A stretch of 64,000 nt of DNA from Synechococcaceae cyanobacterium (GTDB lineage: Bacteria; Cyanobacteriota; Cyanobacteriia; PCC-6307; Cyanobiaceae): assembly GCA_947378425.1 (NCBI GenBank), contig CANCJV010000016.1, positions 1 through 64,000 of the forward strand, written 5' to 3'. Positions 28,582 to 34,205 of the stretch are shown here, one piece after another. The notes below the pieces were generated by a model. That model did no database searches. It was not told the DNA's origin and saw only the letters and a list, made by a program, of their open reading frames with translations. The first letter of the stretch is position 1; each line of letters begins with the position of its first letter. Made by a program: the position numbers and the translations under genes.

Positions 28582-30876
28582 GTGGAAGCCGGCCGTGAGG
28601 GCCAGGCTTTCACCTATGCCAACCCCGACGCTCTCCCCGTCGGCGTGGGTGATCTGGTGCAGGTGCCGCTCCAGGGACGGCGCCACGCCGGGCTGGTGCT
28701 CGCTTGCCACGATGCCCTCCCCGCTGGGTTGGAAGGCAAGCACATGCGGGCGGTGCAGTCCATCCTGCAGAGCGCAGCGGTGGATGGCCACTGGCAATCC
28801 ATCGTGCAGGCGGTGGCCGCGGCCTGCCACACCAGCAATTTCCGCACCCTCAAAAGTGCCCTGCCCACCGGTTGGTTGGGCCAGCGACCCCGGGGTCCCG
28901 GCGGCCGGCTGCTCTGCCAGATCCAGCGAATCGAGCCCGAGACGTCAGAGCCTGATCCTCCGCCGCCGCCCGAGTTGCCGACGGAGCTGAGTTCGCGCCA
29001 GCGCGCCCTGCTGCAGCATCTTGAGGCCCATGGCGGGCGGCGCCTGCTGCGGGACCTGCTGGGCGTCGATGGCTTCGGCCGCGGCCTGATCACGGGCCTG
29101 GAAGGGAAGGGGCTGCTGCGGCGAGCGATGATTCGAGGCCTTGCCGCCACCCGCAGCGGGGCCCAGGCTCCATTCGCCGCGGCAGCGCCACGGACGGGGC
29201 TGGAGCAGCCCATGGCCCTCGAGTCGCCCCAGGCTGCCAATGCCGCCCAGGCCGCGGCTGTCGAGGCGATCGACACAGCCGCTGCCGGCACCACCCTGCT
29301 GCTGTGGGGAGTGACCGGTGCGGGCAAGACGGAGGTCTACCTGCAGGCGGCGGCCCGGCAATTGCGGCAGGGGCGCAGCGTGTTGCTGCTGGCACCGGAA
29401 ATCGGCCTGATTCCCCAGCTGCTGGATCGCTGCCGGGCCCGACTCGGCCCCGGAGTGCTGGAGTATCACAGCGGCATGGGCGACGCGGAGCGGGTGGCGG
29501 TCTGGCGCCGCTGCCTGGACGCGGCAGCGGCGGCCGAACCGGTCGTGGCGATCGGCACCCGCTCGGCCATTTTCCTGCCCCTGGCCTCGCTGGGCCTGAT
29601 CGTGCTCGACGAGGAACACGACAGTTCCTACAAGCAGGAAAGCCCGATGCCCTGCTACCACGCCCGGGACGTGGCCCAACTCAGGGCCAGCCTGGGCGGT
29701 GCCCGCCTGCTGCTGGGCAGTGCCACCCCCTCGCTGGAAACCTGGAAGCGTGCCCGTTTGCCCCTGGGCGAAGGTGGAATTCGCCTGCTGCGACTGCCGG
29801 AGCGCATCGGCCAGCGGCCCCTGCCGCCCGTGCGCCTGGTGGACATGCGCCTGGAGCTCGCTGAAGGCCATCGGCGCCTGATCAGTCGGCCATTGATGGC
29901 CCGGCTGGAGCAGCTTCAGGCCAAGGGCGAACAGGCGGTGGTGCTGGTGCCGCGGCGGGGCTATCGCTCCTTCCTCAGTTGCCGCAGTTGCGGGGAGGCG
30001 GTGCAGTGCCCCCACTGCGACGTGACCCTCACCGTGCATCGCAGCAGCCGGGGCGGCAGCTCCAGCGAATGGCTGCGCTGCCACTGGTGCGATCACCGTC
30101 AGGAGATCGGCGAGCGCTGCGGCAAGTGCGGCTCCACCGCCTTCAAACCCTTCGGGGCCGGCACCCAGCGGGTGATGGAGCAGCTGGCGCTGGAACTGGA
30201 GGGCCTGAGGCTGCTGCGCTTCGACCAGGACACTACCCGCGGTCGCGATGGTCACCGCCGTCTGCTGGATCGCTTCGCCGCTGGCGAGGCCGATGTGCTG
30301 GTCGGCACCCAGATGCTGGCCAAGGGCATGGATCTGCCGCGGGTGACCCTGGCGGCCGTGCTGGCCGCGGACGGCCTGCTGCACCGCCCGGACCTGCGCT
30401 CCTCGGAGCACTGCCTGCAGCTGTTGCTGCAGCTGGCAGGACGGGCGGGCCGGGGTGAACTGCCGGGGGAAGTGCTGGTGCAGACCTATAGCCCCGAGCA
30501 TCCGGTGATCCGCCATCTGGTCGATGGCCGCTATGAGCGCTTCCTTGAGGAGGAGCTGCAGCTGCGGCGTCAGGCCGGCCTGGTGCCGTTCAGCCGGGCC
30601 TGCCTGCTGCGGCTGGCGGGTCCCTCGGCCAGCGCCACCGCCACGGCGGCCACCAGCCTGGTGGAACAGGTGCGCGCTCAGGTCGAGAGCCAGGGCTGGA
30701 TCGTGATCGGCCCGGCCCCAGCCCCTGTGGCCCGGGTGGCCGGACGCAGCCGCTGGCAGGTGTTGCTGCACGGACCGGAGGACGCAGCGATCCCCCTGCC
30801 GCCGGAAGCGGAGCTGCGGCGAATCCTGCCCCAGAGCGTCTCGCTGGCGATCGATCCCGATCCGCTGCAGCTCTGA
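28582..30876 (+). CDS. priA: Primosomal protein N' (replication restart helicase PriA)
   Basis: PriA restarts stalled forks by binding D-loops and loading the replicative helicase. The protein has at least 764 residues. Walker A GVTGAGKTEVY is near residue 245, the DEEHD Walker B near residue 345, then the zinc-binding Cys array (CRSCGEAVQCPHC; CHWCDHRQ; CGKCGS) at about 470-520, and helicase motifs including GTQMLAKGMD. The family N-terminus WLDIWVEAG starts about four codons before GTG 28582, yet no ATG, GTG or TTG lies between that codon and the in-frame TAG at 28495. The true start may therefore be non-canonical or GTG 28582. Confidence 0.93.
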   Translation: MEAGREGQAFTYANPDALPVGVGDLVQVPLQGRRHAGLVLACHDALPAGLEGKHMRAVQSILQSAAVDGHWQSIVQAVAAACHTSNFRTLKSALPTGWLGQRPRGPGGRLLCQIQRIEPETSEPDPPPPPELPTELSSRQRALLQHLEAHGGRRLLRDLLGVDGFGRGLITGLEGKGLLRRAMIRGLAATRSGAQAPFAAAAPRTGLEQPMALESPQAANAAQAAAVEAIDTAAAGTTLLLWGVTGAGKTEVYLQAAARQLRQGRSVLLLAPEIGLIPQLLDRCRARLGPGVLEYHSGMGDAERVAVWRRCLDAAAAAEPVVAIGTRSAIFLPLASLGLIVLDEEHDSSYKQESPMPCYHARDVAQLRASLGGARLLLGSATPSLETWKRARLPLGEGGIRLLRLPERIGQRPLPPVRLVDMRLELAEGHRRLISRPLMARLEQLQAKGEQAVVLVPRRGYRSFLSCRSCGEAVQCPHCDVTLTVHRSSRGGSSSEWLRCHWCDHRQEIGERCGKCGSTAFKPFGAGTQRVMEQLALELEGLRLLRFDQDTTRGRDGHRRLLDRFAAGEADVLVGTQMLAKGMDLPRVTLAAVLAADGLLHRPDLRSSEHCLQLLLQLAGRAGRGELPGEVLVQTYSPEHPVIRHLVDGRYERFLEEELQLRRQAGLVPFSRACLLRLAGPSASATATAATSLVEQVRAQVESQGWIVIGPAPAPVARVAGRSRWQVLLHGPEDAAIPLPPEAELRRILPQSVSLAIDPDPLQL

Positions 30877-30888
30877 AACCAGCGGGCC

Positions 30889-32043
30889 TCAGGCCGGCAG
30901 CTCCGGCAGGCCGAAGCCGAGGCTCAGCCGAATCCGCTGCAACAGTGACACCAGCACCAGGCCGGCGGCGATGGCGCAGGAGCCCAGGCCGAGGCGACTC
31001 CAGCGCCAGCAGCGCAACTCCAGGTGATTGAGCTGGCCGCTCTGCAGCGGCCAGCTCACCTGGGCTCCTCCCCCCCGTTGCCCCGCCCGGGAGCGCACGG
31101 GCAGGGGTTCCGCTGCCAGCACCGCCGCCGCGGAGACCGGCACCAGCCGCAGGCTGAGATCCACACCCCCCAGGGAAGGCAACGACGTGAGATCCACCAT
31201 CAGAGAGACGTTCTGGCGAACCCCCACCAACCAGTTGCTCTCCCGCCACTCCAGATCGGCCGCCGGCAGGCTCACCCCCGCCAGTTCGGCGGCGGCATCG
31301 AGGCTGCGCTGCAGGGCCGCGAGGGCCTGCTCGGCCGGCAGGACCTTCGTGGAGAGAAGCTGCACCTCCCCCTGCCGCTGGCTTTGGAAAGGAGCCGGAC
31401 CGGCCCTGAGCGCCTCGGCGAAACGTCGCTGCCAGGGCGTCAGCTGGCCGGAGTCGCTGCGCAGACGATGGCTCAGTTGCAGACGACCCGGGCCCTCGAA
31501 GCGCAGCTCACTGCTTACCTCCATGCAGCCCCCCAGCAACGGCAGCAGCAACAGCAACGACAACAAGACGACCACCAGAGCGGCAAAACCCACCGGAGCC
31601 GGGGTCGGCCCCACAGGCGGTGGTGGCTCCGGCGGCGGCCGCTGACGGCGGCGGTTGGCGAGCCCAGCGAGGCCGCCGCCATTGCCCTCGAGCAGCGCTC
31701 CCTGCTGAGTCAGATCGGGCAGGGTCAGGGACCAGTTGCGCGGACGCTGCAGAGCCGGGGCCTCCAGCACCGTCAGCAGATCGCGAGCCTGGGCGCGCAG
31801 GGTGGCGTCGACGCAGGCCTGGAGGCTGCGGCAGCAGTCGGCGGCCCGCTGGCTCTCGCCCTGACCCATCAAGGCTGTGACCATCAGCAGGCGTAGGCCC
31901 GCTCCGACCGCTGTCGCCGGTCCATGGGTGGATGCCAGCGGCTCCAGCAGGCGCAGACTCAGGCCATAATCACCGCGCTCGATCGCCTGGCGCGCCGAGG
32001 TGAGCGCCAGGCTGATCGCCGGATCCAGCGCCCGCTCAGCCAT
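30889..32043 (-). CDS. DUF3153 domain protein with N-terminal helical extension
   Basis: In this 384-residue protein residues 1-95 are helical and repeat-like (ALTSARQAIERGDYGLSLRL, resembling a TPR-type fold). A Pro-rich linker (about 135-150) follows, then a hydrophobic helix ending LLLLLPLLGGC at residue 173, then the DUF3153 domain, and a C-terminal membrane helix at about 350-372. The LGGC is like a lipobox, but it is internal. DUF3153 is a cyanobacterial family of unknown function usually found as a lipoprotein. It follows argB by 21 bases on the same strand. Confidence 0.8.
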   Translation of the reverse strand: MAERALDPAISLALTSARQAIERGDYGLSLRLLEPLASTHGPATAVGAGLRLLMVTALMGQGESQRAADCCRSLQACVDATLRAQARDLLTVLEAPALQRPRNWSLTLPDLTQQGALLEGNGGGLAGLANRRRQRPPPEPPPPVGPTPAPVGFAALVVVLLSLLLLLPLLGGCMEVSSELRFEGPGRLQLSHRLRSDSGQLTPWQRRFAEALRAGPAPFQSQRQGEVQLLSTKVLPAEQALAALQRSLDAAAELAGVSLPAADLEWRESNWLVGVRQNVSLMVDLTSLPSLGGVDLSLRLVPVSAAAVLAAEPLPVRSRAGQRGGGAQVSWPLQSGQLNHLELRCWRWSRLGLGSCAIAAGLVLVSLLQRIRLSLGFGLPELPA

Positions 32044-32064: not shown

Positions 32065-32967
32065 TCAGCCGTCGAGCTGGGCCCGGCTGCCCACCACCAT
32101 CGTGCCGATGCCGGCCTTGGTGAAGACCTCAAGCAGCAGGGCGTGGGGAATGCGGCCATCGACGATGTGGGCGGCGGCGACGCCCTGGGCCAGGGCCCTG
32201 ATGCAGCATTCGGTCTTGGGAATCATGCCGCCATTGACGATGCCGGACTGGATCAGATCCCGCGCCTCGGCCAGGGTGAGCTGGCCCAACAGCGAGTCGG
32301 GATCCTCGCGATCGCGCAGGATGCCGCAGGTGTCGGTGAGCAGAATCAGCTTCTCGGCCTCCAGGGCCGCGGCCAGTTCACCGGCCACCGTGTCGGCGTT
32401 GATGTTGTGGGTCCTGCCGTGGAGATCCGGAGCCACGCTGGAAATCACGGGGATGTAGCCGCCATCCAGCAGCGGCTTGATCACCGCGCAGTTCACCATC
32501 GCCACATCCCCGACCAGCCCCAGGCTGCCATCGCCGTGGGTACGGGCCTGCAGCAGGCTGCCGTCGCTGCCGCAGAGCCCGACCGCTCGGCCACCGACCT
32601 GATTGAGGCCATTGACGATCTGCTTGTTGACCTTGCCGACCAACACCATTTCGACCACTTCCATCGTGGCCTCATCAGTGATGCGCAGGCCATCGCGAAA
32701 GCGGGCTTCGATGCCGACACGGGAGAGCCAATGATTGATCTCGGGTCCACCCCCATGGACCACCACCGGCTGCACCCCGACGCAGGCCAGCAGGGCCAGA
32801 TCGCGGAAGACCGCATCGCGCAGGTCCTCACGCACCATGGCCGCTCCGCCGTACTTGACGACGATCGTGCGGCCGCTGAAGCGCTGAATGTAAGGAAGGG
32901 CCTCACTGAGGACGGAGACCCGCAGGCTGTCCTCGGGACTGACGTAGGGATCGGAACGCAAGGTCAT
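32065..32967 (-). CDS. argB: Acetylglutamate kinase
   Basis: ArgB (300 aa) phosphorylates N-acetylglutamate, the committed step of arginine synthesis, and in cyanobacteria is activated by the PII protein (GlnB). Family features are VVKYGGAAM (glycine-rich N-terminus), [22 protein letters not shown] and [13 protein letters not shown]. Full length; ATG 32967 overlaps the DUF2854 stop as ATGA, so translation is coupled. The order DUF2854-argB-DUF3153 on one strand suggests an operon. Confidence 0.97.
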
Positions 32968-33521
32968 TCAGCGGTGGGGGGGATGGCTTCCGTGACCAGG
33001 TCGAGGCTGAACGTTCCGGCCGAGCGTTGAACCAGTTCGGCCTTCAGGCCAGGTCCGAAGAACCGTCCAAGCCGATCCTGCCGTTCCTGCCAGCGTGAAA
33101 ACGGCACAGCGCCGCAGGCAAAGGCCAGACGCAGGCCATAGGAGCCGTCACGATCCAGTTCCTCAACCGACTCCAGCTGGGGTGGTTCGTCCTCATCCCA
33201 GAGCTTGAGGGCCTCCAGGGACGATTCCAGGTGCGCCTTCTGGCCGTAGCGCCAGCGGGTCACGTCGGCCAGCAGCTTGCGCAGGGGCTCGTTTTCGGGC
33301 AACTCCCGCAGCCTGCGGCAGGCCTGGGGTGGGCTGATCCTGGCCGCAGGGGGGAGCTCGGAGGACTTCAGCGCCAGGCCTCCCAGCAGGATCGGAATCC
33401 CGTAGAAGATGGTGGGCAGGCTGAGATTGGCGTTGTCGCCGAGATAGGCGATCGAGCCGATCACCGTGAGCACGGCTCCGGCCACTGTGACGAGACTGCC
33501 GGGGGAAAACAGGGCTTGCAT
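32964..33521 (-). CDS. DUF2854 family membrane protein
   Basis: The 185-residue protein has two N-terminal hydrophobic segments (about 8-28 and 37-52: [32 protein letters not shown]) and a soluble acidic C-terminal domain. It matches DUF2854, found in cyanobacteria and chloroplasts, with no defined function. I chose ATG 33521 (MQALFSPG), giving a short N-terminus before the first helix. Coupled to argB by ATGA overlap. Confidence 0.85.
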
Positions 33522-34205
33522 TGCCCCATCTTCCAGCAACAGGGGACCGGCAGGGGCAACGACTGGGCCGATTCCAGCGCTGCCGCCAACCACCAGCAGG
33601 CCTGTGGCCGTTTTCAGCCCCCTTCAGACTCCCCCCTTTGCGGCTGGGCCCCAGACACGGCCTTTGCCCAGCCATCCCTGGAGCAAGCCAAGTGACGTCA
33701 GGCCTGGCCTCGTAGCAGTCGCTGACTGTGGTCTGACCAAGGCCGTGGGCCGGCGGCGGCTGGGCCCTGCCATCGACACGGTGCCGACGAAGCTTTGACC
33801 CGGTTCCCGACTCGCACCTGGCCAACCAGGGTGGTGGCAGGCCAACCGGGGCCATCAGCATGGCCGGTACCGAGAGGCGTGGATGCACTGTCGGTGCCAT
33901 AGCCCATACCCGCGCGGTGGCGGCTGCATCGGCCGAGTTCCCTGGCTGCTGTGTGGCTACCCATGGCTGCGGGCAGGGACAGCAACGCTCAGCAGGCCTG
34001 CGGCGGCTTTTGCCTCAACAGTCAGCGTTTTCGGCGGCGTCAGCGTCCAGACTGGCCAGCAGATCCTGAGACCGCTTCCCAGTCGCGAGCTTCCTACCTG
34101 GAGCTCCCGAACTGGGGCTCCTGCCCAATCCAGGCGTATGAGCCTCTTTGTCGCGCGCCCGATCTCCTCACCTTCACTTCCGCTGCGCCGTTGCGCCCCA
34201 TCACG
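33522..34205. other. Gene-free region
   Basis: This 684-base stretch contains only frames without recognisable domains on either strand. Promoters for the divergent neighbours should be here; none can be placed. Confidence 0.45.

Follow-up and report, generated by a model that had tools for sequence, protein, structure and literature searches.

A TPR-like/DUF3153 gene fusion in Cyanobiaceae with an internal lipobox that may serve as a cleavage site

The locus analysed here raises the question of what a lipoprotein signal does in the middle of a protein chain. Within the window, i.e. the whole 64,000-nucleotide stretch of cyanobacterial DNA that was analysed, a 384-residue open reading frame carries the segment LLLLLPLLGGC at residues 163–173. 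Lipoprotein signals are normally N-terminal and 16–26 residues long on average, according to the accessible text of PMC8689077, whereas the cysteine of this segment is residue 173 and about 150 residues precede the hydrophobic helix. The first-pass annotation had offered two explanations, namely a domain fused in front of a former lipoprotein or a merger of two genes. The fused frame and its surroundings comprise the following features, with residue numbers referring to the 384-residue protein.

32964–33593, minus strand: DUF2854 gene (Pfam), beyond argB on the upstream side here and in the unfused locus L254
32065–32967, minus strand: argB (TIGR00761), neighbour on the upstream side; in 3 of 3 genomes examined (G391, G235, G239) it also immediately precedes the unfused pair
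30889–32043, minus strand: whole fused reading frame, 384 residues, ATG start, from the ORF call; both parts share a frame at 154 of the 158 family loci
31711–32004, minus strand: N-terminal TPR-like domain (N-domain), residues 14–111, a separate gene in other cyanobacteria; from N-domain profile matches, AlphaFold2 helices within 8–94 and TPR folds
31594–31710, minus strand: proline-rich linker, residues 112–150; low model confidence, coding, dN/dS about 0.33
31585–31620, minus strand: conserved motif PP[TV]GPTxxxxGF, residues 142–153, with no changes at G145 and G152; largely retained upon loss of DUF3153
31528–31593, minus strand: shared hydrophobic helix, residues 151–172, putative tail anchor of the TPR part and putative signal peptide of the lipoprotein part
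31525–31536, minus strand: internal lipobox L170-G-G-C173, where LspA is predicted to cut between G and C; present in all 141 distinct fused proteins, G and C being unchanged
30922–31509, minus strand: DUF3153 domain, residues 179–374, LppM-like fold (Pfam and structure match to 2nc8)
30922–30996, minus strand: C-terminal hydrophobic helix, residues 350–374 (AlphaFold2)
28582–30876, plus strand: priA (TIGR00595), convergent neighbour

The DUF3153 domain (PF11353) was recognised with an E-value of 8e-43 and 146.8 bits, against a gathering score of 21.4, and is encoded once in the window's own genome. Residues 1–173 matched no Pfam family at E ≤ 10 and hence no Pfam TPR profile. The AlphaFold2 model, computed with 43 family sequences (mean pLDDT 86.9), comprised N-terminal helices at residues 8–22, 26–39, 45–61, 64–76 and 80–94, a low-confidence linker with pLDDT below 50 at residues 117–135, and a helix at 151–170 that leads into a mainly beta domain at 174–348, followed by the last helix at 350–374. 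In a structural search, the best matches of the N-terminal part were TPR domains with Z-scores up to 13.2, a level that helical repeats reach easily. The reading frame, Pfam, the model and these structural matches bear out the initial description of an internal LLLLLPLLGGC behind a helical, TPR-like N-terminus. The nearly invariant motif at residues 142–153 would lie just inside the membrane.

The DUF3153 domain of the window protein was also modelled alone (pLDDT 94.6) and matched LppM (PDB 2nc8) with a Foldseek E-value of 6.3e-7 and a Z-score of 11.8 (rmsd 4.1, 151 of 171 residues aligned), the next entry having a Z-score of 7.3. In the model the aligned range begins at C173, in LppM at residue 25. 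As modelled, the domain matches the pseudo beta-barrel fold of LppM. LppM was not among the three PDB sequences that matched the DUF3153 sequence profile at E ≤ 10, and therefore a shared fold is claimed rather than membership. The accessible part of PMC6151718 describes LppM as a known lipoprotein that can bind phosphatidylinositol mannoside; for DUF3153, binding of a lipid is no more than a lead.

Separate genes and the fused frame

An N-domain profile (44 rows) was run on 244 genomes of the phylum, of which 25 came from the window's family, which we take to be Cyanobiaceae in GTDB terms, and 219 from elsewhere. Among the latter, DUF3153 was found in 88 genomes, the N-domain at E ≤ 1.2e-14 in 89 (E-values of 1.2e-14 to 9e-26, with five weak matches at 6e-6 to 0.01 left out), and both in 85. 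The two genes followed each other in the order N-domain–DUF3153, on the same strand and within 1 kb, in 38 of these 85 genomes, and lay within 12 kb in 6 and apart in 41. Four genomes outside the family had the N-domain alone, and three had DUF3153 with no N-domain match at E ≤ 1e-14, two of these three having weak matches. The two halves are thus loosely coupled, given their separation in 41 of 85 genomes and the genomes with one half alone. Whether the N-terminus exists as a separate gene elsewhere was the check proposed in the first-pass annotation, and the 89 of 219 genomes answer it in the affirmative; its suggestion that two genes had merged is right, the N-domain gene being separate, and collinear with DUF3153 within 1 kb in 38 of the 85.

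No fused frame was found among the N-domain loci outside the family whose frames were read; around the best N-domain matches there, no open frame was longer than 307 residues, and in the genome with that frame the two genes are on different contigs. All 26 separate N-domain proteins that were read end 0–4 residues after a terminal hydrophobic window of their own, at 54–66 residues from the domain to the stop (median 62), and a cysteine occurs within the last 28 residues in two of them, at different places. In one unfused locus (L156, genome G235), argB is followed by the N-domain gene, a single stop codon, 27 nucleotides and the GTG start of DUF3153, and the two genes share a frame; argB also precedes the unfused pair in G391 and G239. 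The order of DUF2854 and argB recurs in the unfused locus L254, which makes this gene order probably old. As a separate observation, a gene for an AI-2E-family transporter lies near DUF3153 in two distant genomes (L255:5670–6701 and L257:7499–8596); neither this gene nor argB points to a testable function, and no function is claimed on this basis.

An N-domain tree set 29 separate rows (26 of them different) apart from 54 fused, 5 truncated and 2 frame-broken ones with a branch support of 100. As this tree is small (quick method, 98 columns, 44 open forks), only the split between separate and family sequences was used. It is near certain that the reading frame of the window is a fusion of two genes, each of which is separate and often adjacent to the other in other cyanobacteria.

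DUF3153 scored above the cut-off in 189 of 200 genomes drawn from the order, all from the window's family. A total of 158 family loci were read, 78 and 80 from two genome sets that have some genomes in common, and in 154 of them, corresponding to 141 distinct proteins, the N-domain and DUF3153 lie in one frame. Carriers include Cyanobium, Synechococcus, Vulcanococcus and Prochlorococcus. Two loci (L007 and L092) in which a frame break in the linker puts the N-domain and DUF3153, both still encoded, into separate frames were excluded from the fused count, and two loci of a single strain, Synechococcus sp. CS-1332 (L061 and L248), were set aside. In these, unrelated sequence precedes the proline-rich linker near a contig end, which suggests a misassembly within the proline repeat. 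The dN/dS ratio, calculated as mean dN over mean dS from 56 non-overlapping pairs chosen by the dS of DUF3153, was 0.27 for the N-domain (55 pairs, one lacking a usable dS), 0.33 for the linker, 0.24 for the helix and 0.47 for DUF3153. Purifying selection acts across the linker. In several genomes of group g9, G014, G021 and G041 among them, the DUF3153 match is split into two pieces (about 1–126, and 141 or 150 to 189), which suggests a lineage-specific deletion within the domain.

DUF3153 is missing from 11 of the 200 family genomes, of which five (G005, G028, G039, G077 and G087) retain the N-domain and six drafts have neither part. The five keep the domain, the helix and a recognisable linker motif (TGPT in four, TGTT in G039), and therefore the TPR part and its helix can exist on their own. 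Their chains end 0–8 residues after the hydrophobic window, 54–60 residues from the domain, so that they stop at or just past the lipobox position, and have no cysteine in the last 28 residues. Given this absence, the cysteine is seen only where DUF3153 follows. A decayed DUF3153 C-terminus lies downstream in G028 (L166_14, profile E-value 2.5e-11), and a similar remnant with a stop was seen by eye in G005. In both the N-domain and the argB trees the five truncated genomes nest inside the fused group, and in the argB tree a single clade of the five was not rejected (p-AU 0.54). The six drafts with neither part (G115, G192, G195, G196, G199 of group g21, and G179) reflect either loss or missing contigs.

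Conservation of the internal lipobox

The pattern [LM][GSANT]GC was present in all 141 distinct fused proteins, 139 of which were found by script and two, L023 (MAGC) and L091 (LSGC), whose DUF3153 matches start late, were read by eye. Position −3 is L in 139 proteins and M in two, and position −2 is G, S, A, N or T. Fitch changes were counted on a FastTree tree of the 141 proteins (total length 50.7), from which the linker and the helix were excluded. There were no changes at G172 and C173, two at L170 and 16 at position 171, the median per column being 19.5 in the helix, 16.5 in the N-domain and 30 in DUF3153. Among the counted columns 154–173, only G172 and C173 never change; columns with no changes, however, also occur in both domains, so that invariance alone is not unique to the lipobox. 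Ahead of the helix, G145 and G152 likewise show no changes. The codons of the lipobox do vary synonymously, with TGC in 119 and TGT in 22 proteins for the cysteine and four codons for the glycine.

C173 is the only invariant cysteine in the 141 proteins. As a control, the second segment of the window protein that resembles a lipobox, LGSC at residues 353–356 in the second helix, is not conserved, with cysteine in 5 of 141. All 141 proteins have a net positive charge ahead of the helix, and the best 18-residue hydropathy before the cysteine is at least 2.12. Both lspA and lgt are present in the window's genome. A looser lipobox pattern, used beside the strict consensus, matched 140 of the 141. 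The strict consensus itself, [LV][ASTVI][GAS]C as given in the accessible text of PMC8689077, matched only 55 of 141, because most proteins, that of the window included, have G at −2. With no changes at G172 and C173 on the tree, the lipobox is conserved far beyond chance and is under selection, and it is likely to be active. Since it is fully conserved, DUF3153 is probably still a lipoprotein, and the term "former lipoprotein" applied to it at first is probably wrong.

Readings of the fused product

The fusion would go back to a pair of genes behind argB, that of a TPR-like tail-anchored protein followed by that of a DUF3153 lipoprotein, which would have become one reading frame in the ancestor of the family. 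A tail anchor and a signal peptide would both be oriented with the N-terminus inside and the C-terminus outside, and one helix could therefore have replaced the two and taken both roles. The product would be a membrane polyprotein comprising a cytosolic TPR domain, the helix at 151–172, DUF3153 outside and the second helix. Such a topology, with a cytosolic N-terminus and a lumenal or periplasmic DUF3153, fits the sequence. Lgt would add diacylglycerol to C173 and LspA would cut between G172 and C173, releasing a DUF3153 lipoprotein with its C-terminal helix and a tail-anchored TPR protein held in the membrane by what had been the signal peptide, i.e. the two ancestral proteins. In the fusions, the distance from the domain to the cysteine is 50–61 residues (median 55), which places the cysteine about where the ancestral TPR protein ended; given the 54–66 residues from domain to stop in the separate proteins, the cut would restore about the ancestral length.

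Re-splitting of the fusion by Lgt and LspA is, in our judgement, the most likely single mechanism and rather more likely than not, with lipidation and cleavage predicted from the sequence. Weighing against it are the usual N-terminal place of lipoprotein signals, the match to the strict consensus in only 55 of 141 proteins, the loose coupling of the two genes and the two family loci with a broken linker frame. We lean slightly towards the wider reading that joins two statements: that this is a lineage-wide polyprotein re-split by the lipoprotein pathway, with a folded cytosolic domain of 150 residues as n-region and a spent signal peptide as lasting anchor, and that marine and freshwater picocyanobacteria inherited the fusion from an ancestor in which it had become fixed, and undo it at the protein level. 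The fusion and the gene order further suggest that a cytosolic TPR adaptor and an outward LppM-fold lipoprotein may serve the same membrane site, although the genes lie apart in 41 of 85 genomes.

The main rival is an uncut two-pass membrane protein, in which the helix would be a plain signal anchor. C173 would then be lipidated by Lgt but left uncleaved, or be conserved on other grounds, and the TPR and DUF3153 domains would remain connected through the membrane and act as one scaffolding or signalling unit. Gene fusion often unites partners that benefit from being linked, and in the AlphaFold2 model the helix at 151–170 passes with hardly a bend into the beta domain. Selective constraint on the TPR domain, the linker and the helix is no weaker than on DUF3153 (0.27, 0.33 and 0.24 vs 0.47), and an invariant lipobox would also be expected if Lgt acts and LspA does not. 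A plain anchor, however, needs no L-small-G-C sequence without a single change at G and C, the cysteine is absent from the five genomes without DUF3153, and the DUF3153 side offers no conserved cysteine as disulphide partner, the best being C345 in 71 of 141 proteins. On these grounds we regard the uncut protein as possible but rather unlikely. That the lipobox is instead a relic of an inherited signal peptide that no longer works would follow naturally from the descent of the fusion from a lipoprotein gene, yet a relic would decay, and with helix columns changing a median of 19.5 times while G172 and C173 never do, this explanation is very unlikely.

Two further explanations, both named in the first-pass annotation as grounds on which its fusion proposal would fall, concern the reading frame itself. 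A second translation start before the helix or in its first turns would yield a short lipoprotein, either alongside the fusion or in its place. The reading frame of the window has in-frame GTG codons at −29, −22 and −16 from the cysteine, so that the window taken alone leaves room for such a start, and across the family start-type codons are commonest at −15 (47 of 141) and −16 (37 of 141). Both of these positions, however, are inside the helix, where initiation would give a very short signal without upstream charge. Between −45 and −15 codons, 28 of 141 sequences have no ATG, GTG or TTG, 17 have an ATG and 13 a Shine–Dalgarno-like core; in the stretch upstream of the helix (−45 to −22), ATG, GTG and TTG are all missing from 57 of 141, an ATG occurs in 16, and any one position is shared by at most 24. 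A conserved internal start was not found among the 141 distinct fused proteins, and internal initiation is very unlikely. As for a sequencing or assembly frameshift that joined two genes on paper, L007 and L092 do show a frame break in the linker, but 154 of 158 loci are in one frame, dN/dS is 0.24–0.33 over the domain, linker and helix, and conserved residues span the join. A frameshift is excluded by the family-wide frame together with purifying selection across the linker, and its probability is accordingly negligible.

Signal peptides are generally regarded as brief N-terminal tags that are discarded after use. Should LspA cut the fused protein as proposed in the re-splitting mechanism, a signal peptide can bear an entire folded domain and remain as its anchor, and a gene fusion can be undone post-translationally; signal predictors limited to N-termini would then miss such proteins. 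The fusion links the TPR-like protein with DUF3153, both of them uncharacterised families that are widely conserved in cyanobacteria; DUF3153 is placed in the LppM fold by its model. The host organisms are abundant in oceans and lakes.

Comparison with known systems

Searches of the open-access literature found nothing on DUF3153 by name and nothing under "internal lipobox". PMC12636315 had been considered as a precedent on account of its title and was rejected, as the lipobox in its accessible text lies in an ordinary N-terminal signal. The same literature provided no example of an LspA cleavage site preceded by a folded domain of 150 residues, no relevant report combining signal peptidase II, polyprotein and lipobox, nothing useful on polyproteins of the fbcH type, and no useful cyanobacterial N-terminal data among the matches listed. 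LPA1 presumably belongs to a different Pfam family, DUF3493. As one of the plant and algal TPR proteins of photosystem II assembly (LPA1/REP27; PMC4754418), it was considered as an example of the same architecture and dropped, since no result of the analysis links LPA1 to DUF3153.

LppM (Rv2171, PDB 2nc8) resembles the DUF3153 part in its fold and in its status as a lipoprotein, the latter from the accessible part of PMC6151718. A sequence match between the two was not found with the DUF3153 profile. To our knowledge, no TPR domain is fused in front of LppM, and we know of no cyanobacterium that makes the mycobacterial mannoside lipid bound by it.

The closest relatives are the two sets of unfused cyanobacterial proteins. 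Other DUF3153 (PF11353) lipoproteins share the domain; all 39 of the short forms that were scanned have a lipobox ahead of it, and the one that was aligned (L042) has a hydrophobic C-terminal stretch as here. They start at the signal peptide, whereas about 150 residues of another protein precede it in the fusion. The separate TPR-like tail-anchored proteins, for which no family name was found, have the same N-domain and a terminal helix at about the same distance, but stop after the helix and have no conserved lipobox (cysteine in 2 of 26 tails). For the proposed processing, the nearest parallel is the fbcH cytochrome b/c1 polyprotein of Bradyrhizobium, in which two membrane proteins are reportedly made as one chain and split by signal peptidase. 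Both chains would be re-split at an internal signal, by an ordinary signal peptidase in fbcH and, as proposed here, by the lipoprotein pathway in the TPR-like/DUF3153 fusion.
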